From a virus, in IMG/VR virus record IMGVR_UViG_3300042896_001104, positions 1 through 36,617 of that record: 36,617 nucleotides of DNA, one strand, 5' to 3'. The notes under the pieces are model-generated. The model searched no databases. It was given only the letters and a program-made list of their open reading frames with translations, and was not told the DNA's origin. The translations under genes were made by a program, and so were the position numbers. Of this stretch, positions 5,325-35,060 are shown piece by piece (the stretch's first letter is position 1; each line of letters opens with the position of its first letter).

Positions 5325-6491
5325 ATGAAAAATAAATTTACAATTCCAAAACTAAACAAAAGTTCTAAGTATTGGTATGTTCATTACAGATATGAAGGAG
5401 TTCAATTTAGAGAAACTTACGGTCTAAATAAAATCGAAGATTTAAGTGTTAGAGAATTTGAATATGATAAAGTATGCAAGTCGTTACTTGTACAGTTAAA
5501 TAAAGGATGGAATCCAAATATTAAAGATAATCTTAACATGAGTACTGATATGTACTTTATAGAAGCATTAAGGTTTGCTTTGAATCATAAAAAATCTGAT
5601 ATAGGAAAAGCTACATACTGCTCATACAATGGAACTGTAAAGTTTTTAGAAATAGCTTCTGTAAATCTAAAAATAGATAAGCTAAAAATAATTGACTTAA
5701 AAAGAATGCACGTTAGAATGTTAATGGACGAGGCTAAAATAAATCGAAGTTGGTCCAATAAAGCATATAACACACATTTGCTGCATTTAAAAATACTTTT
5801 GTATGCTTTAATTAAATATGATGTATTAGAGTCTAATCCGGCCAGTAGAATTGATAATAAAAAAGTAGATAAAGAATCAGATTTCAATAAGCCGGCGACG
5901 GATAAAGACATAGAGATAATAAAAAAAACATTAATTGAAAAAGATTATAGATTTTATGTTTTTAGCATTACAGTATTTCACACCGGAATTCGTATGACAG
6001 CTTTGTTGCAAGTAAAAGTCGGAATGGTTGATCTAAATAATAATGAATTTCGATTACCAGGAAAAATAACCAAAAATGGTAAATCTATCACGGTTCCTAT
6101 AAATAAACATTTGAAAGAGTTTTTATTGAACATGGATATTGATAAAATGCCAAAAGATTATTATTTGTTTGGTAGTTTAAAAAGTCAAGGAAAAGGAAGA
6201 AAGGCAAAAGAGAATAAATTACTTCCTGATTTTTTACCAAGCAAGTTTCCTACTATTAGAAGAACTGCATCAATGAGGTGGAAAAAAATAGTTAAAGAAG
6301 AATTAGGAATAAAAATGAATCTATACGCTATGAAACATTACGGAGCCGATAAAAAAATACTTGCCGGCATGAGTATGGATAGTTTACGAGAGCTTTACGG
6401 ACACTCAAGCTATTTAATGACTGAAAAGTACGCCAAGATAATAAAAGAGGTTTACAGGAAAGACATTATGGAAAACTCTCCAGAATTTTAA
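5325..6491 (+). CDS. int: Tyrosine-family phage integrase
   Basis: 388 residues. An N-terminal arm-binding-like region (KSSKYWYVHYRYEGVQFRET) is followed by a SAM-like core-binding domain (about 75-170) and a catalytic domain with Arg223 in HTGIRMTALL, a Lys near 247-253, His338 in AMKHYGADKK, His360 in YGHSS and the nucleophile Tyr369 in TEKYAK. The usual HxxR box reads HYGA, so the second Arg is replaced, a variation seen in other Bacteroidota integrases. It follows the repressor and the paired TTTTTACACA sites and ends at a strong bidirectional terminator. Role: site-specific integration and excision. Confidence 0.88.
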   Translation: MKNKFTIPKLNKSSKYWYVHYRYEGVQFRETYGLNKIEDLSVREFEYDKVCKSLLVQLNKGWNPNIKDNLNMSTDMYFIEALRFALNHKKSDIGKATYCSYNGTVKFLEIASVNLKIDKLKIIDLKRMHVRMLMDEAKINRSWSNKAYNTHLLHLKILLYALIKYDVLESNPASRIDNKKVDKESDFNKPATDKDIEIIKKTLIEKDYRFYVFSITVFHTGIRMTALLQVKVGMVDLNNNEFRLPGKITKNGKSITVPINKHLKEFLLNMDIDKMPKDYYLFGSLKSQGKGRKAKENKLLPDFLPSKFPTIRRTASMRWKKIVKEELGIKMNLYAMKHYGADKKILAGMSMDSLRELYGHSSYLMTEKYAKIIKEVYRKDIMENSPEF

Positions 6492-6531: not shown

Positions 6532-6936
6532 CTAAAAAGGTAAATCGTCCGGTTCATCTTCAGGCGTTCCTCCGGATGGCTGAAACTCTTTAGGATTATT
6601 CTTCGTGTTATAATTTTCTACGGCACTTCCTCCTTGTGGAACCGGACTTTGTTGTGAAGTATCTTGTTTTGCTATCCTCCATCCTTGGATAGTATTAAAA
6701 TAAACAGTTTCACCTTGTGGATTTGTCCATTCTCTACCTCTTAAATTGATGTCAATTTTGACCGAATCTCCTAAGCCAAAATTATTCAACAAGTCACATT
6801 TGTCTTGAACAAACTGAACCAAAATATGTTGTGGATATTGTTCGTCTGTGGTGATTACTAGATCACGTTTTTTGAATCCTCCGGTTCCAACCTCTTTGGT
6901 TGTATCAATTAATTTAATTCTTCCTACTACTTCCAT
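6532..6936 (-). CDS. DUF3127 ssDNA-binding-like protein with SSB-type acidic tip
   Basis: 134 residues. Residues 1-90 (beta strands KKRDLVITTDEQYPQHILVQ, then GLGDSVKIDINLRGREW and YFNTIQGWRI) match the DUF3127 family, an OB-fold-like group common in Bacteroidota. The rest is a Pro/Gly/Asn-rich linker ending in EDEPDDLPF, closely resembling the acidic C-terminal tip of bacterial SSB that recruits partner proteins. It is the last gene after the cassette-array recombinase, ten bases downstream, so it is probably co-transcribed. ssDNA binding is inferred from the family and tip. Confidence 0.75.
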   Translation of the reverse strand: MEVVGRIKLIDTTKEVGTGGFKKRDLVITTDEQYPQHILVQFVQDKCDLLNNFGLGDSVKIDINLRGREWTNPQGETVYFNTIQGWRIAKQDTSQQSPVPQGGSAVENYNTKNNPKEFQPSGGTPEDEPDDLPF

Positions 6937-6946
6937 TTTTGTTTAT

Positions 6947-7783
6947 TTAATTTGTTAATATTATATTTTGTAAGGGTGATTGTATTTTGCTTATTAGGTT
7001 GTGCGAAATATGAGTATAAAGTAAAGTAGTTTTTACATTTGAATGACCTGCAAGTTTTTGTATCAAATTTATGTCTATTCCCGCTTCTACTAAATGCGTA
7101 AAGCAATTATGGCGCATTAAATGAGTATAAACTCGTTTGTTTATCCCTGCTTTTATAGCAAGTTGTTTCATTACTTGATTGACACTTGTGGACGAATATT
7201 GGTCTGAAAATTTACCTCCTAAAACATAAGTTTTTGTTTTATATTCAAAAAAATATTTTTCTAATAATGGAATTAAAGAACTATCAAGCATAACTTGACG
7301 GTCTTTATTTCCTTTTCCTCCAATGACATTAATAATCATTCGGCTGCGATCAATATTCGACCATTTTAGATTGATTAGCTCCGAAACTCGCAAACCACAA
7401 GAATAAAGTAAACTAAGAATTACTTTGTGTTTCAAATTTTCACAAACTGAAAACATTTTTTGAACTTCTTCGACGCTTAAAACTATTGGGAGTTTTCTTT
7501 CTGACTTTGGATATGGAATCTTCTGTATTTTAGAAGGCATACCAACTGTAATTTTATAGAAAGAATTTAAAGCGCAAAGCCTATGTTTTCTACTATTAAT
7601 TGTTTTCGCTTCTAACAACCATAACTTTATTTTTTCGTTGTCAATAGACTTTGGCTCAATTTCATTTCCAAAATTATTCAGAAAGCACCAAACTTGTGAT
7701 TTATAGTTTTTTCGAGTTGCTTCTGAATCGTAAACTAATTGAATGTCTATCGAATACTTATCGTACCATTTTCGAATGTCCAT
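6947..7783 (-). CDS. Xer-like tyrosine recombinase adjoining the cassette array
   Basis: 278 residues with the whole tyrosine-recombinase set: Arg132 (SCGLRVSEL), Lys157 (GGKGNKDR), His221-x-x-Arg224 (THLMRHN), His247 (AGHSNVKTT) and nucleophile Tyr256 (LLYTHIS). An N-terminal core-binding domain covers residues 1-90. The length and the C-terminal ISKIQSPL resemble XerC/D-type enzymes. The extra insertion typical of integron IntI integrases before the HxxR box is not seen. It is transcribed in the same direction as the cassettes and lies at their 3' end, an unusual layout. Role: probable recombinase of the attC-like sites, inferred from adjacency. Confidence 0.8.
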   Translation of the reverse strand: MDIRKWYDKYSIDIQLVYDSEATRKNYKSQVWCFLNNFGNEIEPKSIDNEKIKLWLLEAKTINSRKHRLCALNSFYKITVGMPSKIQKIPYPKSERKLPIVLSVEEVQKMFSVCENLKHKVILSLLYSCGLRVSELINLKWSNIDRSRMIINVIGGKGNKDRQVMLDSSLIPLLEKYFFEYKTKTYVLGGKFSDQYSSTSVNQVMKQLAIKAGINKRVYTHLMRHNCFTHLVEAGIDINLIQKLAGHSNVKTTLLYTHISHNLISKIQSPLQNIILTN

Positions 7784-7848
7784 ATCGTGAAGTATTAATT
7801 TTGTTGATTTTTTTTAAGGAAAATACATATAGTAGTTATAGTCAATGG

Positions 7849-8139
7849 CTACGAATTGTTTTCATTAGACCATTTTTCAAACTTTTTTACCGCATTTTTT
7901 TCGTTTGAAGCAACACAAGTAAAAATATAATCTATATCATTCCACATATTTTCAGTGGTATCAAAACGACCACTTCTTGTAAAATGATATTCTTTACAAC
8001 CATTTGGAATAATAGGTTTTTTAGGCTCTTTACTAGATTCGTTTTCTTTTTCGTAGTATTTACGTTCAGAAGTTTGAGCCATTGAACTTAGCATTGCGCC
8101 CATCATTGTCATCGCAAATAATTTTGATTTTGAACTCAT
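7849..8139 (-). CDS. Small hypothetical protein, paralogue of the gene at 10908-11198
   Basis: 96 residues. The N-terminus MSSKSKLFAMTMMGAMLSSM is Met-rich and weakly hydrophobic. The C-terminus YIFTCVASNEKNAVKKFEKW aligns with VFVCYSINDKNAIKKFQKY of the 10908 gene, also 96 residues. Both have a central stretch in which an aromatic or His residue precedes a G.F segment (YHFTRSGRF and YWFRDDGSF). It is the last gene before the array recombinase and lacks its own attC-like site downstream. Family and function not recognised. Confidence 0.6.
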   Translation of the reverse strand: MSSKSKLFAMTMMGAMLSSMAQTSERKYYEKENESSKEPKKPIIPNGCKEYHFTRSGRFDTTENMWNDIDYIFTCVASNEKNAVKKFEKWSNENNS

Positions 8140-8170
8140 AAGACTTTAAGTTTTAAAAACCGCCACTAAC

Positions 8171-8300
8171 TATAACAGCTTGTATAATTAATGCGGTATT
8201 AGTGTTTAATTTATAATTCAGTTTGTATTTGGATAATCTGTTTTTTGAATGGAATGATTCGGCTTATTTTTCCGCACTAACCATACAAGCGAAACGTTAC
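8171..8300 (-). repeat. attC-like site A
   Basis: Outer boxes TATAAC (8171-8176) and GTTAC (8296-8300). Inner arms GCTTGTAT (8178-8185) and ATACAAGC (8283-8290), continuing to TGCGG (8192-8196) with CCGCA (8272-8276). On the minus strand the arm is a continuous 19-pair stem with three G-T/G-U pairs. The right spacer is GAAAC and the left spacer a single A. It lies just downstream of the PAPS-reductase-like gene, whose stop is ten bases before the box. Confidence 0.75.
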
Positions 8301-8309
8301 AGGAAATGA

Positions 8310-9197
8310 TTAGAAACTGCATACACAATTAAAATCGTCCTCCGTTTGTAACTCCATTTTTATTGTTCTTGGTAATTCTGAAAGTTTTACTAAATCGGAT
8401 ATTGATTTATGACCACGAAAAGAAACACTATTATATTTTTGTTCCTCTTTTTCAAACCAATCAATAAATCTTGTACCATAAAGTATATTTTCAATTAACG
8501 TATCTTCCGATTTTTTCCAGCACAATTCACAATTTCCATATTTGCCGTGTATTTGTAATTTAAACGGTTGTTTTTTCCACCATTTATTTAAGTCAATTTG
8601 TGATATTGGTGTATAAAAATCAGTCAATAAAGGAAATATCTTTTGCCTTTGCTCTTTGATCTCAGCCCAAGAAATTCGTTTTGGCATATCCTCTTTTCTA
8701 AATCCTATTGCGATTTTATATTTATTCACGCCAAAAATATCATCACATAATTTTTTAGCGGGAAGCGTTTTTAAATTTTCAGAACAGTAAGGTGCATCTT
8801 TACTTGGTAATCCTTCAAAAATTCCTTTATTTTTATGCTCAATCATTTTAGAAAATGGCTTTGCAGTCATATTCATATTTTCCCAATCAACAATTTTATA
8901 TTTAACTCCAGTTCCTAAATCATTTGAATAAACACCTTCAATTTTCACTAATGGCATTTCCCAATGCTTTTCGATATTTTTAAGAAAATCAATTGTTTCA
9001 GGTCTTTCCATTCCTGTATTACAAAAAACAAAAACCTTTTCATAATTAGCATATTTTTCATTTGTTTGAATATGTCTTGCCATCATTGCGGAACTTCTAC
9101 CACCCGAAACAGTTATCATTAACGACCCATCACTTCCTGTAACACTCGTTTGCACGCATTGCGGATTTTGTAGTTCAATCATATTTTCGTTTCGCAT
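8310..9197 (-). CDS. PAPS-reductase/PP-loop family protein (cassette gene)
   Basis: 295 residues of the adenine-nucleotide alpha-hydrolase (phosphoadenosine phosphosulfate reductase-like) superfamily. The PP-loop is ITVSGGRSSAMMA (residues 28-40), followed by VFVFCNTGMERPETIDFLKN, PYCSENLKT with Cys138, IGFRKEDMPKR (164-174) and a Cys pair GNCELCWKKS (Cys223, Cys226), plus CVCSF at the end. The cysteines may hold a metal or Fe-S cluster. Phage and mobile-element relatives are linked to nucleotide or DNA sulfur chemistry (DndC-like) as well as sulfate assimilation; no sulfur-pathway neighbours are present. It is followed by attC-like site A, so it appears to be cassette cargo. Confidence 0.75.
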   Translation of the reverse strand: MRNENMIELQNPQCVQTSVTGSDGSLMITVSGGRSSAMMARHIQTNEKYANYEKVFVFCNTGMERPETIDFLKNIEKHWEMPLVKIEGVYSNDLGTGVKYKIVDWENMNMTAKPFSKMIEHKNKGIFEGLPSKDAPYCSENLKTLPAKKLCDDIFGVNKYKIAIGFRKEDMPKRISWAEIKEQRQKIFPLLTDFYTPISQIDLNKWWKKQPFKLQIHGKYGNCELCWKKSEDTLIENILYGTRFIDWFEKEEQKYNSVSFRGHKSISDLVKLSELPRTIKMELQTEDDFNCVCSF

Positions 9198-9234
9198 TAT
9201 ATTTATTTTTAGTTAGAAATTTTATTTTTACGAA

Positions 9235-9267
9235 GCCCGCAACGACGAGCAAGCGAGATAACGTTAT
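9235..9267 (-). repeat. Partial attC-like site (right half only)
   Basis: The sequence GAGCAAGCGAGATAACGTTA (9247-9266) resembles the right halves of the other four sites (stem, short spacer, GTTA box), but I find no matching left half between 9198 and 9235. As in sites B and D, a reading frame (9264-9497) ends with its TAA inside the GTTA box. Probably a truncated or decayed site. Confidence 0.45.
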
Positions 9268-9497
9268 AAGTTATATTTCCCAATAGTCCAGTAAAACCGA
9301 ATATTAGCTCTTGCTCCCCAAATATTATCAACAACAGCGGTTCTAAAGCCTTTTATCTTTATAATTTTCGTATAGTAATATTTACCATTTTCGTGCTTTT
9401 GTTTAAAATGATTCCAATTTATCAACTTGAATAAAAAATGAATACAACTTATAACAACGTGTATAAGAAATGGCTTTATTCGGCTTAATTTAAACAT
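9264..9497 (-). pseudogene. Cassette remnant ORF reading out of attC-like site B
   Basis: 77 codons, but the first 17 or so (MFKLSRIKPFLIHVV) are the translation of attC-like site B itself. The remainder (KGFRTAVVDNIWGARANIRF, then YWTIGKYNL) looks protein-like but is short. The stop lies in the box of a half attC-like site. The simplest reading is a cassette whose 5' part and start were lost when a neighbouring site was fused to it. A genuine short gene starting within the cassette cannot be excluded. Confidence 0.4.
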
Positions 9498-9577
9498 AGT
9501 TTTGTACTTTTAAGATTAGTAATAATTCAATAATTCGGGTGTGTTTTTACGCCACTTCCCATACACGCAACCGTTAG
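9449..9577 (-). repeat. attC-like site B
   Basis: Outer boxes TTATAAC (9449-9455) and GTTAG (9573-9577). Inner arms CGTGTAT (9458-9464) with ATACACG (9561-9567), then GAA/TTC and TGGC/GCCA, a 17-pair stem on the minus strand with three G-T/G-U pairs. The stem sequence differs from sites A and D while the layout is the same. The stop of the 9574-9852 gene lies in the GTTA box. Confidence 0.75.
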
Positions 9578-9852
9578 TGGCAATTATCAGAAACCCACAT
9601 TTTCAAAAGAACTAATGAAGTTGTAGCGGATTCGTATTTCGCATTTTCAGTTCTGTCTTTTACTTTTTCCGAATGTTTGTAAGTATTATCAATTCTGTTT
9701 TGAATTTCTTTTTCGACCTTATCAAAATTTGATTCCTTTTTTTTGGCTTGCATAATATCTTTGATGATAGTTTCTCCATTTTCGTCAACTAATTCATAAT
9801 GACTAAACGCTCCGTTATCTGCGTATTTTTCAACTGAAATAAATTTTTTCAT
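9574..9852 (-). CDS. Cassette hypothetical protein
   Basis: 92 residues, hydrophilic (YADNGAFSHYELVDENGETI, then a Lys/Glu helix KKKESNFDKVEKEIQNRIDN). No family recognised and no membrane segment. Its TAA stop (9574-9576) is formed by the GTTA box of attC-like site B, a hallmark of cassette genes, and its start follows site C by about 30 bases. One gene plus one site makes a complete cassette. Confidence 0.6.
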   Translation of the reverse strand: MKKFISVEKYADNGAFSHYELVDENGETIIKDIMQAKKKESNFDKVEKEIQNRIDNTYKHSEKVKDRTENAKYESATTSLVLLKMWVSDNCH

Positions 9853-9880
9853 AATTCGTTTTGTGTTAAAATAACTGCCA

Positions 9881-10001
9881 CTAACAGTCGCTATATTTCA
9901 GCGTTTTATTTAGTGGAATTATCGGTGGTTAATAATATTTTGCTTTCGGCAGAAAATATACGGTTCTAAGCCACGCCGAAATTATAGCGACGAACCGTTA
10001 G
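9881..10001 (-). repeat. attC-like site C
   Basis: Outer boxes CTAAC (9881-9885) and GTTAG (9997-10001). Arms GTCGCTATA (9887-9895) with TATAGCGAC (9983-9991), a bulged base, then nine more pairs including TTC/GAA and GCG/CGC. Right spacer GAACC, left spacer A. The stem sequence is unrelated to the other sites, yet pairing and spacers are kept. Confidence 0.75.
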
Positions 10002-10010
10002 CGGTTATTG

Positions 10011-10244
10011 CTACGAATCTTCCTGCGAAAGACATCTGTCACAATATGAAATATTTTCGCCAGAAGTTTTGTTTTCACAATAAATACATTTTTTACCTGT
10101 TTTCCCTTTAGATGAATATCGTTCCCAATTATCTGGTATTGGTTGATAAGCGGAATTATATCCAATATCGCCTACCTTCATTATGGTACCTTCGAATTCA
10201 TAATCTTTAGTGCAGATTATTTTAAATGGTTTTTTATCTTTCAT
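10011..10244 (-). CDS. Cassette protein with zinc-ribbon-like Cys pairs
   Basis: 77 residues. The N-terminal half (KIICTKDYEFEGTIMKVGDI) is beta-rich. The C-terminal half has CIYCENKTSGENISYCDRC, a CxxC-x11-CxxC pattern expected to bind zinc (residues 53-71). It overlaps the upstream gene by four bases (ATGA), so the two form one two-gene cassette closed by site C ten bases after the stop. Function unknown. Confidence 0.6.
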   Translation of the reverse strand: MKDKKPFKIICTKDYEFEGTIMKVGDIGYNSAYQPIPDNWERYSSKGKTGKKCIYCENKTSGENISYCDRCLSQEDS

Positions 10245-10510
10245 ACAAAGTTTTTAATTACAAAATTATGATGTTCTATATATTCTGCTTTTTCTAAACT
10301 TTTATCGTGCTTAGCAAAATTAAAGGGGTCTGTTATTTCTTTATAAAAACCACTTCTTCTCCAAGATTCTTTTATCCAACCCCTATTATTTCTTTCGGTA
10401 TAAGTTCCAAGAGCGAAAAAGAGTCTAGTAGATTTAGTAATTTCCTTTCTATCTGTTAGCTTCAAGCAATCTTGAACTACTTCTTGTGTATCTGTTATTA
10501 TAATATTCAT
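10241..10510 (-). CDS. Cassette hypothetical protein
   Basis: 89 residues, start about 30 bases after the box of site D. Visible features are RLFFALGTYTERNNRGWIKE and several aromatic residues; no known motif. It is the first gene of a two-gene cassette with the zinc-ribbon protein, coupled by an ATGA overlap. Confidence 0.55.
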   Translation of the reverse strand: MNIIITDTQEVVQDCLKLTDRKEITKSTRLFFALGTYTERNNRGWIKESWRRSGFYKEITDPFNFAKHDKSLEKAEYIEHHNFVIKNFV

Positions 10511-10542
10511 AAAAATTCAGTTTTTTAAACCCGAAACAACCG

Positions 10543-10668
10543 CTAACAGCTTGTATAGTTAATGCGGTATGGTGTTAAATTTACAGTTGATTTTGTACTT
10601 GATTGTTCAGTCTTGTATGGAGTGATTCGGCTTATTTTTCCGCACTAACCATACAAGCGAACCGTTAT
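10543..10668 (-). repeat. attC-like site D
   Basis: Outer boxes CTAAC (10543-10547) and GTTATA (10664-10669). Arms GCTTGTAT (10549-10556) with ATACAAGC (10651-10658), extending through TTA/TAA to TGCGG/CCGCA. On the minus strand this is a 19-pair stem with two G-T/G-U pairs. It is the closest relative of site A, including the loop motif GATTCGGCTTATTTTT. The stop of the excisionase-like gene lies in the GTTA box. Confidence 0.75.
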
Positions 10669-10907
10669 ACTTTGTTTAAGTATTTTTCGATTTCTACTTG
10701 AGAGATTCGAGGGGATTTCCCTATTATTTGAGTAGAAATATCACCACTTTTTATTAACCGGTGAATCGTTGATTGGCTAATTCCTAATTGTTTTGATGCT
10801 CCGATGATTGAGTACGTTAGGTTTTTTTTAGGTTGGCGAGATTCGACGATTTTGTCTATTTGATCTTCGGTGAGTTCTATGGTGAGTTCTATGGTTATTT
10901 TTTGCAT
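10665..10907 (-). CDS. Excisionase-like HTH protein (MerR/HTH_17 type)
   Basis: 80 residues. The C-terminal part is a clear excisionase-type helix-turn-helix: IIGASKQLGISQSTIHRLIK then SGDISTQIIGKSPRIS and EIEKYL (residues 34-78). The N-terminus contains a repeated ITIELTIELT encoded by a 12-bp tandem duplication. Its TAA lies in the box of attC-like site D and its ATG follows directly on the upstream stop (TAAATG). It may regulate recombination directionality of the phage or array; unproven. Confidence 0.7.
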   Translation of the reverse strand: MQKITIELTIELTEDQIDKIVESRQPKKNLTYSIIGASKQLGISQSTIHRLIKSGDISTQIIGKSPRISQVEIEKYLNKV

Positions 10908-11198
10908 TTATTTGGAGTTTTGGTCGTTTTTATATTTTTGGAATTTCTTAATTGCGTTTTTATCATTAATAGAATAGCAAACAAAAACACATTCATCTTT
11001 TCGCATTCTTTCACCTTGCTTTTCATTTAAAAAGCTTCCATCATCTCTAAACCAATAATGGAATGTTCCTGGTTGTTGTTTTGATTCTCTTGGTTCAGAA
11101 GGAATAAACGCTCTAACTTTATTTCGCTTAGGATAACTTACATTTTCCATCATCTCAGCCATCATAGCCATTGCTAAAAAACTTGATTTCATATTCAT
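10908..11198 (-). CDS. Small hypothetical protein, paralogue of the gene at 7849-8139
   Basis: 96 residues. Met-rich N-terminus (MNMKSSFLAMAMMAEMMENV), a middle RESKQQPGTFHYWFRDDGSF and a C-terminus CYSINDKNAIKKFQKYKNDQ shared with its paralogue at the other end of the array. The stop abuts the excisionase-like ATG. The low sequence identity but identical length and layout suggest old duplication or two related cassettes. Function unknown. Confidence 0.6.
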   Translation of the reverse strand: MNMKSSFLAMAMMAEMMENVSYPKRNKVRAFIPSEPRESKQQPGTFHYWFRDDGSFLNEKQGERMRKDECVFVCYSINDKNAIKKFQKYKNDQNSK

Positions 11199-11664: not shown

Positions 11665-12906
11665 ATGAATATTTCATTTAAACTACAGGGTACTAAAGCG
11701 ATAAAGAAATTATCTGTCCGCTTATATCATAACAAGCTGGACGTTTCAGTAGCTATGGCGGTTATGCTTATGGACCACGAATGGGATTCAGTTTCACAAA
11801 CTGTTATTGATAATAGTGAATTGAATATTGCGTTACAAGGACTGAAACTCGATATTCTAAAACAGTACAACAAAGACTTTTGCAAGGGTGTAGTAATAAA
11901 TAAGCTATGGGTTCATAAAGTAGTAAAAACAAGCTTTATGCGTCCTAAATTAGAGAATGGATTAGTAAGTCCGGATTATACTATTTACGTGTCGGATTTT
12001 TCCTCCTGGTGGTTAGATAATCATTCTCAAGCGTGGAAAGTTTCACATAAAAAGCTAATGGATGAAGGATTGCGAAACCAATATACGAAATTTGTGAAAA
12101 TTTTGAAGGAATACGAAACGGTTGTAGGTGAAAAATTGCAGCTTAGAAATGTTTCTATTTCAGATTTGAATAGTTTTGTTGATTATTTAGATACTGAAAA
12201 CTACCAAATTTCTACAATAGAAAGACATCTTGGCCGGTTCCGTTTTTTCTTAAATCGTGCTTCGGAGCATAATATCGATGTGAACCAATCGTATAAACAG
12301 CGTATTTACTTAGACAAAGAGGATGATTTTGAAGGAATTTATTTGAACGAAACTGAAATTCAAAAAATTATTGATCAGGATTTTTCGTCGGATTACGAAT
12401 TGAATATTGCTAAACAAAACCTTTTAATTGGATTGCACACAGGATTACGTGTTAGTGACTTCTTAAAATTAGATACTTCTAATATTACCGATGGTGTTAT
12501 CAAGATAAGAACTAAGAAAACAAATTCAAAAGTTGTAATCCCGATGCATCCAGTTGTAAAGAGTGTTATTGATTCTAATTTTGGAAACTTGCCACCGAAA
12601 ATAAGTAGTTCAGAATTTAACAAGCACATAAAAACCATTTGTCAAGTGTGTAAAATCGACAACGTAATTCATGGTAAATTATTTGATAAAGATTTAAAAC
12701 GAAAAAAAATTGGGTATTTTGAAAAGTATAAACTAATTTCGTCTCACGTATGCAGAAGGAGTTTTGCTACTTTGAATTATAACAAAGTGAGTAAGGAAGT
12801 TCTGAACGCAATATGCGGATGGAGTAAGAATAGTAATCAATTAGAGAATTACAATAAAACTAGTAAATTAGAATACGCAGAAATAATGCAGAACCAATGG
12901 AAATAA
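11665..12906 (+). CDS. Tyrosine recombinase/integrase with SAM-like domain
   Basis: 413 residues. An N-terminal arm-type region (about 1-100) precedes a SAM-like core-binding domain (105-215) and a catalytic domain with Arg262 (HTGLRVSDF), Lys284 (IRTKKTNSKVV), His361-x-x-Arg364 (SSHVCRRSFA), Trp386 in place of the second His (CGWSK) and nucleophile Tyr396 (LENYNK). The Trp substitution is a known tolerated variant. It overlaps the zinc-finger gene by ten bases. This is the third tyrosine recombinase of the window and is typical of Bacteroidota phages and conjugative elements. Confidence 0.85.
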   Translation: MNISFKLQGTKAIKKLSVRLYHNKLDVSVAMAVMLMDHEWDSVSQTVIDNSELNIALQGLKLDILKQYNKDFCKGVVINKLWVHKVVKTSFMRPKLENGLVSPDYTIYVSDFSSWWLDNHSQAWKVSHKKLMDEGLRNQYTKFVKILKEYETVVGEKLQLRNVSISDLNSFVDYLDTENYQISTIERHLGRFRFFLNRASEHNIDVNQSYKQRIYLDKEDDFEGIYLNETEIQKIIDQDFSSDYELNIAKQNLLIGLHTGLRVSDFLKLDTSNITDGVIKIRTKKTNSKVVIPMHPVVKSVIDSNFGNLPPKISSSEFNKHIKTICQVCKIDNVIHGKLFDKDLKRKKIGYFEKYKLISSHVCRRSFATLNYNKVSKEVLNAICGWSKNSNQLENYNKTSKLEYAEIMQNQWK

Positions 12907-17987: not shown

Positions 17988-18575
17988 TTATAAGTTTTCG
18001 ATTAACCACTCTATTAAAGCGGTTTCATCGATTGCGTCGATTGGGTTAGAAAGGCTTTTTAAATTTCCGTAACCGTTAAAACTGATATAATCGTCTGACC
18101 AGTTAACATCTCCAAAACTTGCAGCCCTTGCCGCTTCCATTGGTTTATTGGCGAAGAAAATTTCAAAAAATTCATCGTCGAAACTATAAATTTCGTCCTC
18201 GTTTCTTTGTTCTGAACAATACTCATTCCAGTGACTAATTTTTTCGTCGTCGCTTAGATTTTCAAAATCCAGTTCTATATATTTGAAAATTTTGTCAAAG
18301 TCGCACCCTGATTCGCTATAAAACTCCTCCGGGAAGCCTTCAAAGTCTGTAATCATTGTTTCCTCTCTTTTACTTCCGTATTGATCCAAAGGACTTTTTT
18401 CGTCGCATTCTTTGAAGTGGTTAGAGATATACTCGTTTAATTCTTCGGCGTCGTTAAAATCGGCTAAATCTACCCAATGCCCGAACTCAAATTGAGTTCC
18501 ATTGTTATAACTTGCGTAATCAGTTAAGAAAATTTTTGCGGTTGTTGTTGTTGTTGTTGTTGCTGTTGCGTTCAT
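17988..18575 (-). CDS. ardA: ArdA-like antirestriction protein
   Basis: 195 residues. KIFLTDYASYNNGTQFEFGH then WVDLADFNDAEELNEYI (residues 14-50) matches the ArdA family start (strand, YNNG, W.DL, D..E). Later ITDFEGFPEEFYSESGCDFD and many Asp/Glu fit the acidic, DNA-mimic nature of ArdA, which occupies type I restriction enzymes. Length is within the family range. The N-terminus has a run of threonines (residues 6-12) encoded by seven ACA repeats. Expected role: protection of incoming phage DNA from host restriction. Confidence 0.72.
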   Translation of the reverse strand: MNATATTTTTTTAKIFLTDYASYNNGTQFEFGHWVDLADFNDAEELNEYISNHFKECDEKSPLDQYGSKREETMITDFEGFPEEFYSESGCDFDKIFKYIELDFENLSDDEKISHWNEYCSEQRNEDEIYSFDDEFFEIFFANKPMEAARAASFGDVNWSDDYISFNGYGNLKSLSNPIDAIDETALIEWLIENL

Positions 18576-20815: not shown

Positions 20816-22123
20816 ATGGCAAACCAACATACAGGAGGGAAATGGAATGTTTACGACGAGCAAATTAAGCAAATTTTAGAAGAGAATCAAGGTATAAAAT
20901 CTATTGAAATAGTAAATAAAATACAAGGTGATTTTGACACTCATCAGCGCGAGTCGTTTTCAAGATACATTAGTAGAAATATTAGTAGTAATAAGTTTTC
21001 TAAGGACGTTGAGATAGTTGTCGAAAAAGAAGTTGATGAAGATTTAGAGAACGAAACTACCACTGAAACTAGTCAATATCGTAAAAATCGTGGATTTACT
21101 GCTATTTCTTCTTCCGGTGGTATAATGGATATTAATCAATATTGCGAGTTCTACGGTTTCGATTATGACACTGTAAAGAGTTGGAAATTAGTTTCTCATA
21201 CCGGAACTCCATATTACAATATCGCTTTTTATAGTTCAGAAGAACAATTTGAGAATGATTACTTAGAAATAAAAGAGATTCTGACTACGGAACTTGAAAA
21301 ATGCATCAAACATACTTCTACAAGTATCGCAGGAAATGAAGTTGCAAATATTATAATTGGTGATCCGCACTTAGGAGCTTATATCAACGGATTAGTGAAT
21401 ACAAAAGATTTCTCTATTCCAATTTTGATTGATTACATCGAGGATATTGTTGTAAAAGTAAATAAAAGAGGGTTTAGCGAAGTAAATGTGATGTTTTTGG
21501 GCGATATGATAGAGAGTTTTACCGGTTTAAACCACAAAAACTCTTGGAAAGGACTGCAAAAAGGAATGATTGGAGCAGAGGTTATTAAGTTTTCTGTTAA
21601 AATATGGCATGAAAAGTTTCTGTCAAAAATCACCAACCTTAAAAAAGTGAAGTTGGTTGCTGGAAATCACGATAGGCTTACTTCAGATAAAGAAGAAGAC
21701 GTTGACGGAGGAGCTGCTGATTTAATTGCTTTTGGATTAGAACTTTTGGGATATGATATTGAGTTTCACCCAACGGTTATTTCATGTGAGATAGACGGCA
21801 TAAACTACATACTACTTCATGGTCATAAAGGAATTAGTAAGAAGGCGACTAAGGATATTTGTTGGGATTTCGGGAAGAAAGGAGTTTTTAACGTAATCCT
21901 TGAAGGACATCTTCATTCAATAATTCAAAAACTAAGCATGAATATGAAAGGAAAATTCAACATCATAAAAGATGATTCTGTGGACCACATTAGAATGCAT
22001 GCAAGGAGTTTATTTACCGGAAACGGATATAGTGAAGATTTAGGTTTTACGTCGAACGCCGGATTCTCTATAATCACCAATAATGGAAAAGGTCTTCCAG
22101 ATATTGATAACAAGCTATTATAA
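20816..22123 (+). CDS. Calcineurin-like metallophosphoesterase
   Basis: 435 residues. N-terminal 170 residues contain a helical region and a small domain (GGIMDINQYCEFYGFDYDTV). The C-terminal phosphoesterase has every metal motif: Asp183/His185 in IIGDPHLGAY, GD at 229-230 in MFLGDMIESF, Asn-His in VAGNHDR (281-287), His335 in LLHGHKG and GHLH at 364-367. Related phage enzymes act on nucleic acids or nucleotides. The stop overlaps the next start (TAATGG). Substrate unknown; a DNA-processing role is inferred from the replication-region location. Confidence 0.85.
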   Translation: MANQHTGGKWNVYDEQIKQILEENQGIKSIEIVNKIQGDFDTHQRESFSRYISRNISSNKFSKDVEIVVEKEVDEDLENETTTETSQYRKNRGFTAISSSGGIMDINQYCEFYGFDYDTVKSWKLVSHTGTPYYNIAFYSSEEQFENDYLEIKEILTTELEKCIKHTSTSIAGNEVANIIIGDPHLGAYINGLVNTKDFSIPILIDYIEDIVVKVNKRGFSEVNVMFLGDMIESFTGLNHKNSWKGLQKGMIGAEVIKFSVKIWHEKFLSKITNLKKVKLVAGNHDRLTSDKEEDVDGGAADLIAFGLELLGYDIEFHPTVISCEIDGINYILLHGHKGISKKATKDICWDFGKKGVFNVILEGHLHSIIQKLSMNMKGKFNIIKDDSVDHIRMHARSLFTGNGYSEDLGFTSNAGFSIITNNGKGLPDIDNKLL

Positions 22124-26796: not shown

Positions 26797-27093
26797 TTAA
26801 AAAACGATGACTATATCTCTATAATCAATCATCAAGTACGTTACTCCGTCCTGAGTGAAGTTTGTCATCTTAAATTTGTCGAAGATAACTTCGTCGCCAA
26901 TATTTAATGTAAATGATCCGTCGGCGAGTTTCGGACATTGCTCACCTATCGAAACTACCTTACCCCTCTTCTGCTTTTCATTAGCATCTACTACTCCGCT
27001 TAAATCAAATCCGGATGCTGTTTTGTTTTCGTTGAATACTTCCTCGACTATTACGATGAGATTCAGTGCTTTTCCTTTGAATTTATTTTCCAT
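26797..27093 (-). CDS. groES: Phage GroES-like co-chaperonin
   Basis: 98 residues. The GroES pattern is visible: ALNLIVIVEEV...SGFDLSG (mobile loop region), KRGKVVSIGEQCPKLADGSF, GDEVIFDKFKMTNFTQDGVT and YLMIDYRDIVIVF. It matches the family in length and strand order. The ATG lies 11 bases inside the end of groEL, so both are co-translated from one message. Expected role: heptameric lid of the adjacent GroEL ring. Confidence 0.82.
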   Translation of the reverse strand: MENKFKGKALNLIVIVEEVFNENKTASGFDLSGVVDANEKQKRGKVVSIGEQCPKLADGSFTLNIGDEVIFDKFKMTNFTQDGVTYLMIDYRDIVIVF

Positions 27094-28645
27094 CTTGACT
27101 GAATCTTTTTAAGGTTACTACATTATTCGTGCGAAGCAAGTTATTAGAAGCAGAAACAGCATTAATCAAGGCGTTTTTAATTCCTTTGGCGGTATCCAGA
27201 ATTCCGGCATCGAACATGTTTACTACTTTATAGTCTTTCACATCATAACCTGTGGGATAAACATCTTTTATATCATCTTGCCAAATAGCATTGGCGTTTG
27301 ACATTATTTTATCAAAAGGAGCGCGAATTGATTGTAGCGTAACATTATCTAAAACATATTCTAATATGTCCCAAGCAGACAATAAGGTAATTCCTCCACC
27401 CGCTACAACTCCACCGTCCTTAGAAGCTCTCACTGCACAAGTTGCGTCATCCACGCGCGCTACTTTCTCTTCAACTTCACTCGGAGTTACACCTCCAACC
27501 ATAATAGTTGAAATTCCTCCTGAAATCTTAGCGATACGCTCACGTAAATAGTTTCGCTCACCTTCATTGGTTTGAAGTTTTATCTGCGCCGTAAGGTCTT
27601 TAATTTTACCGTCGCATTTTTCTTTGTCAAGAGTTTTGCTTGGTGTGATTACGGAGTCTTTTTTACCAATCTCGATACGCTCACATGAACCAAGATATAA
27701 TTCTTCTTTTCCGTTATAGTTTGTACGAGTGATTCCCTGCAAAACTTCGCAACCTAAAACTAAAGCTAAATCAGCCATTGTTTCACGACCTTTCTTTCCT
27801 TGATACGGTGGTTTTATGACACAGAATGGGTATTTACTATTCTGAACATTAGTTAAAATCAGGTTAGAAATATCATGCTCCATATTAGCGATAAGCACTA
27901 ATGGTCTTCCTTGTTCTGAAGCATATTCTAAGAAAGGAATAACTTCGCTTGCAGTCTGAAAGTTAATCAAAGAGCAAAGCACAAGCGGATTGTCAAAAAC
28001 TACTGATTGCGTATCATTCACATTAATAAATCCTTCATTAGCGTATCCGGCGTCAATAGGATTTCCTGCAATGTGTTCGATATAAGTTTCGTCGGTAAAG
28101 CTTCGTTTGTGAGATACGATTCCAAACTCTCCTGCTTTGATAAATGCCTCTTGAACAATTTTAGCAATTTCCTCATCGCCGTGAGCAGAAGTTTTCGCAA
28201 TATCAAACATTAATTTGTCATCTACCGGAACTGCTATCTTATCGATATATTCTAATATTTTTATAACTGATTCGTCAATACGATTTTTAATTTCAATTGA
28301 TGAAGTTCCTTTTTTTAATTCCTCTAAGGAGTTTTTGAAGAAAGCTTGGGTAAGTACGCAAGTTAAAGTGGTGTTGTCTCCTACGATTTCAAAAGTCTTT
28401 TTACAAGCTTCTTTTAGTAGTTCGCAAGCAATATGTTCCATTGGGTCCTCCCAAAAGAGCTGTTCTAATGAATCCCAGCCATCGCTTGTGATATTAGGTA
28501 ATCCGCCAACAGTTTCGAATAAATTATTATTACCTCTGAAACCCATAGTATCGGAAACTATATCGCAACTTTTATTAAGCCCAGATAGTAATCTCGCTTT
28601 TGCATCGTCACCCGATACAACTTGCCTTAAAATTGTATTACTCAT
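27083..28645 (-). CDS. groEL: Phage GroEL-like chaperonin
   Basis: 520 residues from ATG 28645 (a longer frame to 28702 lacks promoter room). Group I chaperonin features: VGDNTTLTCVLTQ (Asp90, equal to E. coli Asp87), apical domain with FDNPLVLCSLINFQTASEVI, then RPLVLIANMEHDISNLILTN and CVIKPPYQGKKGRETMADLA, ERIAKISGGISTIMVGG, ARVDDATCAVRASKDGGVVA (Asp399/400, equal to catalytic Asp398) and GGG at 416-418. Both ATPase aspartates are kept, so it is probably active. The GGM C-terminal tail is absent. The gene order groEL then groES is the reverse of the bacterial operon. Confidence 0.88.
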   Translation of the reverse strand: MSNTILRQVVSGDDAKARLLSGLNKSCDIVSDTMGFRGNNNLFETVGGLPNITSDGWDSLEQLFWEDPMEHIACELLKEACKKTFEIVGDNTTLTCVLTQAFFKNSLEELKKGTSSIEIKNRIDESVIKILEYIDKIAVPVDDKLMFDIAKTSAHGDEEIAKIVQEAFIKAGEFGIVSHKRSFTDETYIEHIAGNPIDAGYANEGFINVNDTQSVVFDNPLVLCSLINFQTASEVIPFLEYASEQGRPLVLIANMEHDISNLILTNVQNSKYPFCVIKPPYQGKKGRETMADLALVLGCEVLQGITRTNYNGKEELYLGSCERIEIGKKDSVITPSKTLDKEKCDGKIKDLTAQIKLQTNEGERNYLRERIAKISGGISTIMVGGVTPSEVEEKVARVDDATCAVRASKDGGVVAGGGITLLSAWDILEYVLDNVTLQSIRAPFDKIMSNANAIWQDDIKDVYPTGYDVKDYKVVNMFDAGILDTAKGIKNALINAVSASNNLLRTNNVVTLKRFSQDGK

Positions 28646-28754
28646 ATTTATTTTGATTTGATTAATTACAGCAAAATTACGATTTTTTTTAAACGACAAC
28701 AAATGTTTGTTGTCTTTTAATTTATATCTTTGTCATTATTAAGTATTTGAGAAA
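28646..28754. promoter_or_regulatory. Divergent groEL / tail-fibre promoter with palindromic operator
   Basis: Minus strand: TTTG (28703-28700) and TAATTTTG (28679-28672) are exactly 20 bases apart, an excellent promoter for groEL. Plus strand: TATCTTTG (28725-28732) is a perfect -7 for the fibre gene, but the nearest TTTG is only 15 bases upstream. The palindrome GACAACAAATGTTTGTTGTC (28695-28714, nine-base arms, two-base centre) overlaps both upstream elements. Confidence 0.6.
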
Positions 28755-30749
28755 ATGACAAAAATTTCTAAGAAGACAGCTTATCCGATAAAAACTCCCA
28801 TAGCCCCAGACTACTTTGTAGGAACGGATAGCGAGAACAATGGAAAAACGGTAAATTTTTCATTTGAGTCGGCATCAAAACTAATAAATGAAATAAACGG
28901 AACCCCTATTGTAAATTACTTGTTCAGAACGGATGTAAACATTCCGTTGACAGTTTTGACCGATGGAGTTTTTTTATCTGCTGAAAATGAAACTTCTATA
29001 TCAAGTATTAGCAAGTTATACATTAACAAAAAGAATTTTAGCGAGGTTAATTTAACCGAGTTATTTCAGTTTATTTCGGTAAATCTTGAAGTGTTTTTGT
29101 TAAAACTACGCAATTCAAGTAACTTAAATAACGCCGTTTATTTTAAAATAACCGGAGCCGTAGAATATGAAAGCTATATTACATTAGACGTAACCATACA
29201 TCTTAATAATAGTGCAGTAACTGAACTTGTAAACTTTAATGTTTACTTCTTTGATTTTGAATTGAGTTCTTCTGATTTGGTAGTTTCATTACCTGAATTC
29301 AATAAAATCGTATCTCAAACAGGATTTACCTCTACTGAAACTCAAATTATTTTTAATCCTACATGGGTTTGGTTATTGAAAAATGTGAGTTACACAAACG
29401 CTTCAAGTGTCACCAAAACTATAAATCCAACTGCTACCGGTAAAAAAAGAATAGACGTATTTGTTTTAAATACTTCAAATACTTTTCAAACTATAAGTGG
29501 CGCAGAAACTACCGGAAGTCCCGTAAAACCAACAATTCCAATAGATACTTTAGAAGTTACATTTTGTATCGTAGGAGATACAGGGATTGAAAATGTAGAG
29601 CAGATAACAACTTCTGTAGTTACAGTTTATAAAACTTATTTTGTAAATAGCATTTTTGGAAATAATGATACAGGTATTTACCAAGATTCTACTAGGCCAT
29701 ACGCAACAATTGATTATATATTAGGATTATCAGCATTAAAAAGTGGGGATATAATTTTTTTACAAAATGGTGATGGAGTATTTCCATTTAATGGACAAAT
29801 ACCCACAAATTTTAATTTAATAATCAAAGCAGATCAAAAAGTTACTGTAGATTTTTCCAGTAATGCTAATGCTAATATTATTGCTAACTCTAGTGGATAT
29901 AAAATTTTAACTTTTGATATGCCTTTAGGTATTATTAAGAATGAGAGAAATAACGGCATAGGTGTTTCATTACGAGAAAATAATGACAGATTAAGTCTTT
30001 ATTTAAATATTGCAGAAATCTATTGGAATTGTTCATCTACTATAGGTGGTGTTGTTATAAATTCTGTTTTAAAAATAAATAAATTTTCAATGTCAGGTAA
30101 TAAGCCTACATATTCTATATTAAATTCCTCTGGTATAGTAGAGATTGTTTGGTTTGTTATATTAAGTGGAAGAAACTCTCCTGCATTAGCAAAAGAAGTT
30201 ACGATTCATTACATATCAGGCGCAGGAGGTTTTATGGCTCAAGGAGACGTTAAATATAGAATTGGCGATATTGCTACGACTCTTAGCTGCATGCTTGAAG
30301 TAGGGAATGGGAGTATTGATTTTATGGCTTCGGTTATTAATGTTAATGTAGAAATTGGGGGGTATTTAGGCGACCTTTTTATAACAGGAACTATTAAAAG
30401 CTGTCCTTTATTTACTAATAATGGAATTTGGAGTAACAATACAAAAACTTTAAAATTTTTAAATTTTGTTGTTAATTTTGGATTAGGTTCTATTCAAAAT
30501 TACGAATCTAATTTAGTCTTCGAGAATTGTTCTATCATAAGTACAAATTCGCCAATAAAACTTTTTTCAGGTGTAGGTACTTTAAAAATAAAAAATAGTG
30601 CTTTTGAAGTTATTAATGCTGTCCCTTTAGTTACAGGAGGAGCAGCATCTGGAAAAACTATAAAAATATCAGGAGTATCAAGCAATGCAACAATGCTTTC
30701 AGATCAAAACGGTACGGGAGTAACCATAACTCAATTTACAAACTACTAA
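28755..30749 (+). CDS. Putative tail fibre / receptor-binding protein
   Basis: 664 residues. Starts MTKISKKTAYPIKTPIAPDY then FVGTDSENNGKTVNF, an N-terminal module of tail fibres in Bacteroidota phages, and related to the start of the 32527 fibre. The middle (about 300 onward) has the short strand-rich pattern of a right-handed beta-helix (repeated ...DIIFLQNGDGVFPFNGQIPT, IYWNCSSTIGGVVINSVLKI, FENCSIISTNSPIKL). Probably a trimeric fibre or tailspike; no hydrolase motif is visible. Confidence 0.6.
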   Translation: MTKISKKTAYPIKTPIAPDYFVGTDSENNGKTVNFSFESASKLINEINGTPIVNYLFRTDVNIPLTVLTDGVFLSAENETSISSISKLYINKKNFSEVNLTELFQFISVNLEVFLLKLRNSSNLNNAVYFKITGAVEYESYITLDVTIHLNNSAVTELVNFNVYFFDFELSSSDLVVSLPEFNKIVSQTGFTSTETQIIFNPTWVWLLKNVSYTNASSVTKTINPTATGKKRIDVFVLNTSNTFQTISGAETTGSPVKPTIPIDTLEVTFCIVGDTGIENVEQITTSVVTVYKTYFVNSIFGNNDTGIYQDSTRPYATIDYILGLSALKSGDIIFLQNGDGVFPFNGQIPTNFNLIIKADQKVTVDFSSNANANIIANSSGYKILTFDMPLGIIKNERNNGIGVSLRENNDRLSLYLNIAEIYWNCSSTIGGVVINSVLKINKFSMSGNKPTYSILNSSGIVEIVWFVILSGRNSPALAKEVTIHYISGAGGFMAQGDVKYRIGDIATTLSCMLEVGNGSIDFMASVINVNVEIGGYLGDLFITGTIKSCPLFTNNGIWSNNTKTLKFLNFVVNFGLGSIQNYESNLVFENCSIISTNSPIKLFSGVGTLKIKNSAFEVINAVPLVTGGAASGKTIKISGVSSNATMLSDQNGTGVTITQFTNY

Positions 30750-34496: not shown

Positions 34497-35060
34497 ATGA
34501 GAATGACTGATAGATTTATTGTAACTCCTTTGAATGGGGAGAAATTCATAAATACTAAGCAAGTAGGCGACAAAACTCTTATCACCAATACTTCAATAGA
34601 ACACGCTTCTAATGTAAATCGTATAGGTGTAGTAGTTTCGCTCCCTTTAAATTATGAAGGAAACATTAAAGTAGGCGACCATGTAGTAGTACAACACAAT
34701 GTATTCAGAACTTATTTTGACTCACAAGGAAAGACAAGAGAATCTGATTTTCATATTCAAGGGGATTTATTTCAAGTTTTGCCCGAATTGATTTTTTTAA
34801 TCATTCGTGGAGAAAAAAAAATTGCAGTAGATAATTTCGTATTCGTTACTCCTATCGTAGAAACTAAAAAATGGATAGGAGAAGTAGAACAAGAACATGT
34901 GGGAATCGTAAGATATACTAATGAAATTCTACTAAAACTCGGTATCAATATAGGCGATAAAATAGCCTTCGGAAGCGACTGTGAATATGAGTTCTTAATC
35001 GACGACGAAAGACTATACAGAATGAGAACAAGCAGGATTCTTGCTAAATTAGAAGCATAG
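34497..35060 (+). CDS. Possible GroES-fold (tandem barrel) protein
   Basis: 187 residues. Two segments each look like a GroES-type beta barrel: RFIVTPLNGEKF...NRIGVVVSLPLNYEGNIKVG then DHVVVQHN (residues 6-70), and NFVFVTPIVETKKWIGEVEQ...HVGIVRYTN then GINIGDKIAFGSDCEYEFLI (about 120-175), with the D.LYRM ending. In the sense of gp31 or GroES, the GDxIxF-type turns match. It lies among fibre genes rather than next to groEL. Homology is suggestive only. Confidence 0.4.
   Translation: MRMTDRFIVTPLNGEKFINTKQVGDKTLITNTSIEHASNVNRIGVVVSLPLNYEGNIKVGDHVVVQHNVFRTYFDSQGKTRESDFHIQGDLFQVLPELIFLIIRGEKKIAVDNFVFVTPIVETKKWIGEVEQEHVGIVRYTNEILLKLGINIGDKIAFGSDCEYEFLIDDERLYRMRTSRILAKLEA

Follow-up and report, generated by a model that had tools for sequence, protein, structure and literature searches.

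A candidate integron-like cassette platform with an adjoining XerA-like recombinase in a probable flavobacterial phage

The DNA examined here is IMG/VR virus record IMGVR_UViG_3300042896_001104, a viral stretch of 36,617 bases with 32% G+C, called the window below. Its genes include tail, endolysin-like, exonuclease, single-stranded DNA-binding protein (SSB) and chaperonin genes. The exonuclease-like protein encoded at 20816–22123 has phage relatives only among those infecting Cellulophaga, Tenacibaculum and Olleya, which makes a flavobacterium a very probable host. Our subject is an array of small genes and hairpin sites on the minus strand, which adjoins a tyrosine recombinase gene (Table 1). 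An earlier, sequence-only reading had placed an integron-like cassette array at 7849–11198, with four palindromic sites, A to D, separating small genes that read in one direction. All four sites are real and lie within a few bases of the positions given then, and genes and sites do share one strand. A fifth site, E, had been overlooked, and the interval extends too far.

Table 1 Features of the cassette array and its borders (sites run from AAC to GTT; R1 is the covariance model described in the text).
Feature	Position	Strand	Remarks
Tyrosine recombinase of the array	6947–7783	−	278 aa, complete; XerA/NF040815-like; directly beyond the array
attI-like site and recombinase leader	7784–7837	−	core AAC followed by TACTATATGTA at 7837–7824; crossover box AAC at 7837–7835
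Array proper	7835–10666	−	minus-strand genes and sites
Cassette 1: site A, gene 7849–8139, R'' box GCCATTGACTATAAC	7835–8298	−	96 aa, PHROG 37413, no known function; 15 nt of pairing between its R' and R'' boxes
Cassette 2: site E, PAPS-reductase-like gene	8296–9265	−	open reading frame 8310–9197; PF01507, PHROG 424
Cassette 3: site B, 190-bp body without convincing gene	9263–9575	−	block also in L013 (90% identity)
Cassette 4: site C, gene 9574–9852	9573–9999	−	92 aa, no known function; stop overlaps R'' box
Cassette 5: site D, genes 10241–10510 and 10011–10244	9997–10666	−	89 and 77 aa, neither with known function
Putative hairpin recombination site A	8298–8174	−	scan and R1
Putative hairpin recombination site E	9265–9141	−	scan and R1; close copy elsewhere in the L013 array
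Putative hairpin recombination site B	9575–9453	−	scan and R1
Putative hairpin recombination site C	9999–9883	−	scan and R1
Putative hairpin recombination site D	10666–10545	−	scan and R1
Distal boundary: helix-turn-helix gene, excisionase/regulator-like	10665–10907 (boundary 10664–10907)	−	stop overlaps TAAC box

Read along the minus strand, the sites follow in the order D, C, B, E, A, with the small genes between them. Each consists of TAAC, 4–5 nt, a stem arm, a loop of about 65–80 nt, the second stem arm, 1–2 nt and GTT, the stem being 18–21 bp long; boxes, stem lengths and the asymmetric spacer (4–5 versus 1–2 nt) are as the sequence-only reading described them. When the window was scanned for TAAC...GTTA boxes, spacers and stem score, five sites were found in 7800–10700 and none in the rest; 200 dinucleotide shuffles of 7800–10700 gave none. 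Covariance model R1, built from 20 sites with A and D in the training set and B, C and E outside it, matched exactly the same five (E-values of 4e-10 to 2e-17). A and D have most of their sequence in common. Rfam gave no match at its gathering threshold.

Viral loci encoding relatives of the recombinase contain 125 such sites in 343 kb upstream of the recombinase gene and on its strand, versus 6 on the opposite strand, and just 3 in 511 kb downstream. The features of attC sites, namely R'' and R' boxes, a conserved imperfect hairpin and a variable sequence, are found in 116 distinct sites, and in more than 100 the stem sequences are unrelated while the fold is common. Single-site folding energies are unimpressive for A and B, and covariation across sites was used instead as the stronger evidence. 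Among the 20 sites, 17 of 19 stem pairs have changed on both sides, with a covariation score of 0.68 as compared with 0.16 when shuffled and at most 0.13 when slid. The sixth stem pair is T-A and the fourteenth a G·T wobble in 20 of 20, and the fifth is a C·A mismatch in 13. Since pairing was demanded in selecting the sites, the percentage paired is raised, but the invariant positions are left unexplained by the selection. Folding is best for the gene-sense strand, which from attI is the bottom one.

A second kind of pairing joins the two ends of a cassette. Each site is followed by 15 nt that begin with GTT, and these are the complement of the last 15 nt of the same cassette, which end in AAC. 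Ten or more contiguous box pairs occur in 71% of cassettes (5/5 in the window), against 1.7% for boxes taken from different cassettes. At position 11 of the R' box, 80% of sites have G, and opposite it in the R'' box 91% have T.

Upstream of the recombinase start, most related loci have in common a leader that begins with AAC, then TA(C/T)TATATGTA, and the gene abutting this AAC differs, being mostly unrelated, across about 50 of them. A conserved leader with a varying neighbor is the pattern that a fixed insertion point would leave. In L117, L118, L119 and L120, the same attI is abutted by four different cassettes, and the alignment of the window to L108, its closest long relative, ends at 7840. 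At the distal border, the flank (...ATAAC) is fixed in L117, L120 and L121. Because of these fixed ends, and because the R'' box of the helix-turn-helix gene has no partner R' upstream, this gene appears to be the fixed distal flank. Gene 10908–11198, which the earlier interval had included, falls outside the array. The proteins of 7849–8139, inside the array, and of 10908–11198, just outside, have similar methionine-rich N-termini.

The recombinase has residues R132, K157, H221, R224, H247 and Y256, which are invariant in its relatives. Its best NCBIfam match is XerA (NF040815), under the cut-off of that model, and its TIGR02249 score is 157 bits against a cut-off of 265; sub-cut-off matches to TIGR02249 were discounted, as they are present in all 14 control genomes. 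Relatives with 54–92% identity are encoded in 69 viral loci, and a scan of 85,000 bacterial and archaeal species gave a top identity of 43% among the matches listed. The insertion specific to IntI, about 40 extra residues in IntI1 and the Shewanella IntI (VchIntIA, 2A3V, aligns to the latter through them), is missing from P0001 and from the recombinases of Polaribacter phage Leef_1 and of the chromosomal arrays described below. In a tree, the phage recombinases form one clade (support 100/100), the chromosomal ones another (92/84) with L023, L024 and Leef_1 inside, and IntI forms a third (100/99). The three are separate from the XerC/D-like clade (100/99). The position of Leef_1, on a long branch, is unsure. 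L023, L024 and other closest genomic relatives of the phage recombinase have no adjoining sites in the loci searched, and the chromosomal recombinase was identified starting from arrays, not from such relatives. An AlphaFold model (pLDDT 69, pTM 0.37) was not used. The recombinase gene looks mosaic when compared with L013:7102–7929 and L111:10001–10831, the N-terminal part being diverged and the C-terminal part closely similar (89% nucleotide identity in L013).

Related phages were compared for gain, loss or movement of cassettes with exact breakpoints in the boxes, a check that the sequence-only reading had proposed, and it was positive in L121/L120, L013 and L106. L121 and L120 are about 99% identical in the recombinase and attI region. 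They have four cassettes in common, 99–100% identical, in the orders P-Q-R-S and R-S-Q-P with other cassettes between; breakpoints are at TAAC, between unrelated neighbors, and the neighbor of cassette S is attI in one phage but a different site in the second. Window block 9576–9260 (cassette 3) recurs in L013, there followed by another site, with the break at TAAC, and this block and site E occur in L013 in different neighborhoods. The body of the PAPS-reductase-like gene is 92% identical in L106 (L106:241–1092 versus window 8296–9143), with different stems on both sides, which suggests that stems can be exchanged independently of the gene. Where an alignment ends within an array, we read its end as coinciding with an AAC or GTT box, once extension into similar stems is allowed for, and the remaining ends lie in flanks. 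The evidence supports the earlier proposal that a flavobacterial phage harbors a mobile system of cassettes whose recombinase is unlike IntI.

That reading had also suggested a covariance-model search of Bacteroidota. R1 finds sites in 47 of 61 Flavobacterium genomes (E ≤ 1e-6) and in 50 of 198 genomes across the phylum (1e-7). In a proteobacterial control phylum, 0 of 200 genomes gave a match (1e-5); this control has no positive of its own. The Flavobacterium array in G054 has 34 sites on one strand within about 42 kb; at its far end lie a second, different tyrosine recombinase and a partial copy (L194:3533–4516 and L194:3–554). A related recombinase of about 350 aa stands at the attI end of the arrays in G054, G016 and G037, and one is near sites on the same contig in G060, G035, G049, G020, G031 and G032. 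The chromosomal arrays have their own attI-like sequence (AAC followed by TTGTATATA...). They resemble the phage array in matching the same covariance model, in the geometry on the attI side and in the related insertion-less recombinase at that end; they differ in having tens of cassettes and a recombinase with an extra N-terminal region of about 75 aa, whose gene has its 3' end facing the array.

They also differ in polarity. With site orientation taken from the asymmetry of the site, and the longest reading frame taken for each cassette, 48 of 50 phage cassettes have their gene pointing to attI and 2 have it the opposite way, whereas 53 of 54 chromosomal ones have it pointing away. Cassettes and recombinase gene are co-directional in both settings, the recombinase being first in chromosomes and last in phages. 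We infer that the polarity switch adapts the array to the direction of transcription.

This opposite orientation bears on the origin of the phage array. It could have been acquired recently from a host chromosomal array, with cassettes flowing freely between the two, which would leave the mechanism as it is; the same site type and a related recombinase in Flavobacterium fit such a history. We consider it unlikely, given the reversed genes and a separate phage recombinase clade with full support. Furthermore, phage cassette proteins have no match in the sampled chromosomal loci except a recombinase.

From 112 phage cassettes came 152 reading frames, which fall into 127 families; 113 of these families have a single member. 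A domain scan covered 110 phage cassette proteins, five from the window. About 15 of the 110 match DNA methyltransferase families (8 N6/N4, 4 C5, 3 Dam, plus single matches), and others are TET-associated glycosyltransferases, PAPS-reductase/SspD-like proteins and many without assigned function. In cassette 2 of the window, the PAPS-reductase-like gene probably starts at the ATG at 9119. For 110 control genes downstream in the same phages, 25 of 29 families are listed; they are terminase, capsid, portal, helicase and similar families, and none of these 25 is a DNA methyltransferase. The enrichment of DNA methyltransferase and other modification genes in the payload points to anti-restriction, and the array likely serves the fast replacement of such functions. 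Outside the array, window gene 17988–18575 (−) matches an anti-restriction protein (PHROG 2059).

Judged by site architecture, covariation, exact breakpoints, reordering, attI conservation, orientation and cassette content, all documented by sequence comparison, the region very likely serves a flavobacterial phage as an integron-like cassette platform, in which a XerA-like recombinase presumably acts at hairpin and attI-like sites. The adjoining recombinase, site E, the polarity reversed relative to attI, the chromosomal arrays and the cassette content are additions to what the sequence-only reading had noticed.

We conceive the platform as follows. The recombinase would insert and excise cassettes at the attC-like hairpins and at the attI-like site upstream of its own gene, a cassette unit being a hairpin with one or two genes. 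In an excised circle, the two complementary 15-nt end boxes would pair on either side of the stem, lengthening the hairpin and making the folded site complete. The breakpoints place strand exchange within the AAC/GTT triplet, mostly on the AAC side, and the recombinase would use folded single strands. Cassette genes point to attI and the recombinase, opposite to those of classical integrons, and a swap of payload could quickly replace anti-restriction functions.

The phage array and IntI integrons have several features in common. Both have attC-like hairpins with variable stems and R''/R' boxes ending in AAC/GTT, a single attI-like site beside the recombinase gene, with cassettes entering at its GTT, and discrete cassettes that are gained, lost and reordered with exchange in GTT. 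In both, the bottom strand as seen from attI folds best; for the phages, the strand bias of 125 to 6 and the one-strand G·T wobbles would fit recombination of the folded bottom strand. There are also differences. The phage recombinase lacks the IntI-specific insertion. Phage R boxes pair over about 15 nt, whereas integron R boxes usually pair over 7 nt. The spacer is 5 nt instead of 1 nt, and the phage sites have an invariant G·T wobble among their stem pairs, with another that is frequent in the R arm. Phage cassette genes face attI, which lies 5' of the recombinase gene; in integrons the genes point away from attI and attC follows each gene on its 3' side, a direction shared by the chromosomal Bacteroidota arrays. 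The phage array appears to work like an integron, but it is not an IntI integron, as its recombinase has no such defining insertion and its genes have the opposite polarity. The relation to the XerA, XerC and XerD recombinases of dimer resolution consists in the XerA match; the phage recombinase falls outside the XerC/D-like clade, and its gene adjoins a cassette array.

Several points weigh against the platform reading. The IntI insertion is held essential for integron function (PMC8138268), and a recombinase without it must handle folded sites otherwise or not at all. The left break between the window and L106 is at GTT, a stem swap, so a rule of exchange at AAC only is incomplete. Some relatives have one site or none, often since the contig ends. 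Some cassette boxes are unpaired, which points to missed or decayed sites.

Cassettes with attC-like sites have been reported in phages, including Polaribacter phage P12002L with methyltransferases (Qi et al. 2023, PMC9892861). According to the available part of that paper, P12002L was classed as a CALIN (cluster of attC sites lacking integron-integrase), its attC2 was used by IntI1 in E. coli, and complete phage integrons had IntI while the P12002L cluster had no recombinase; this part describes no cognate recombinase or attI of the present type. In our analysis, P12002L has sites found by R1 and by the scanner, and no recombinase. Its minus strand (L168, 31118–39709) has several more such sites than the two tested in the literature. 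In Leef_1 (MT732473), at least three such sites with paired boxes lie upstream of the recombinase. R1 did not match them, and because of this failure we take them as a diverged form. Leef_1 (L167, 3850–5650), a cultured phage of the Helgolandviridae with a diverged array and CAAC/GTTG boxes, would be a good laboratory model.

These precedents, and the presence in the window of two other, longer integrases, lend something to the view that the array is a captured CALIN fragment of a classical IntI integron, served in trans by a host IntI, and that the adjoining recombinase is a mere phage integrase. This is improbable, however, as the recombinase clade recurs in 69 viral loci with the conserved attI leader alongside, gene polarity is reversed, the proteobacterial control gave no R1 site, and the chromosomal arrays carry a related recombinase rather than IntI. 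Still less credible is a set of independent moron genes whose palindromes are terminators or other intergenic hairpins, with ordinary homologous or illegitimate recombination as the cause of the shuffling. The hairpins do stand between genes, and phage genomes are mosaic, but the breaks fall within a box between unrelated stems, so there is no homology to recombine; the 15-nt boxes are specific to each cassette, and the invariant G·T wobble and T-A pair and the long A+T-rich loops are unlike terminators. A miniature inverted-repeat transposable element (MITE) or repetitive extragenic palindromic (REP) family inserted between genes, which the likeness of A and D might suggest and which the sequence-only reading had named as a possible refutation, is very unlikely, since more than 100 sites have unrelated stems and a common fold, the gene moves with the site, and no relative was seen with target duplications and an empty site from which only the hairpin is missing.

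Elsewhere in the window, two longer tyrosine integrases flank the array and its recombinase, at 5325–6491 (+) and 11665–12906 (+), the latter conserved in L108. GroEL-like and GroES-like proteins are encoded at 27083–28702 (−) and 34497–35060 (+), and a search for relatives of the 664-aa protein of 28755–30749 found none. The SSB gene at 6532–6936 adjoins the recombinase gene, and the idea of a single-strand operon was dropped because SSB is not conserved there in relatives.

Taken as an integron-like platform, the phage array is best read as the phage branch of a Bacteroidota system that would shuffle DNA-modification, probably anti-restriction, genes. IntegronFinder 2 found almost no integrons in Bacteroidetes, only In0 elements and one complete integron, in Salinibacter, and the absence of integrons from some clades was termed intriguing (PMC9024848). 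The 47 Flavobacterium and 50 Bacteroidota genomes matched by R1 carry a site type of integron-like form. It is likely, with less certainty than the platform itself, that Bacteroidota and their phages have a second integron lineage, with an insertion-less XerA-like recombinase and folded attC-like sites marked by invariant wobble pairs, of which the phage array would be a mirror-image form whose reversed genes serve as an exchangeable anti-restriction store. The system is also a candidate mechanism for an unexplained gene uptake in Riemerella anatipestifer, where aph(3')-IVb with a 140-bp attC-like 3' untranslated region is taken up without homology, by a mechanism not known (2026 paper, PMC13148043). 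There too, in the Flavobacteriales, a gene with one attC-like stem-loop integrates without homology; the recombinase is not known in that case. The finding raises how an insertion-less recombinase can use folded sites. Phages may be using a cassette platform to swap DNA-modification genes, and the polarity switch between phages and chromosomes would be a natural experiment on what determines cassette orientation.

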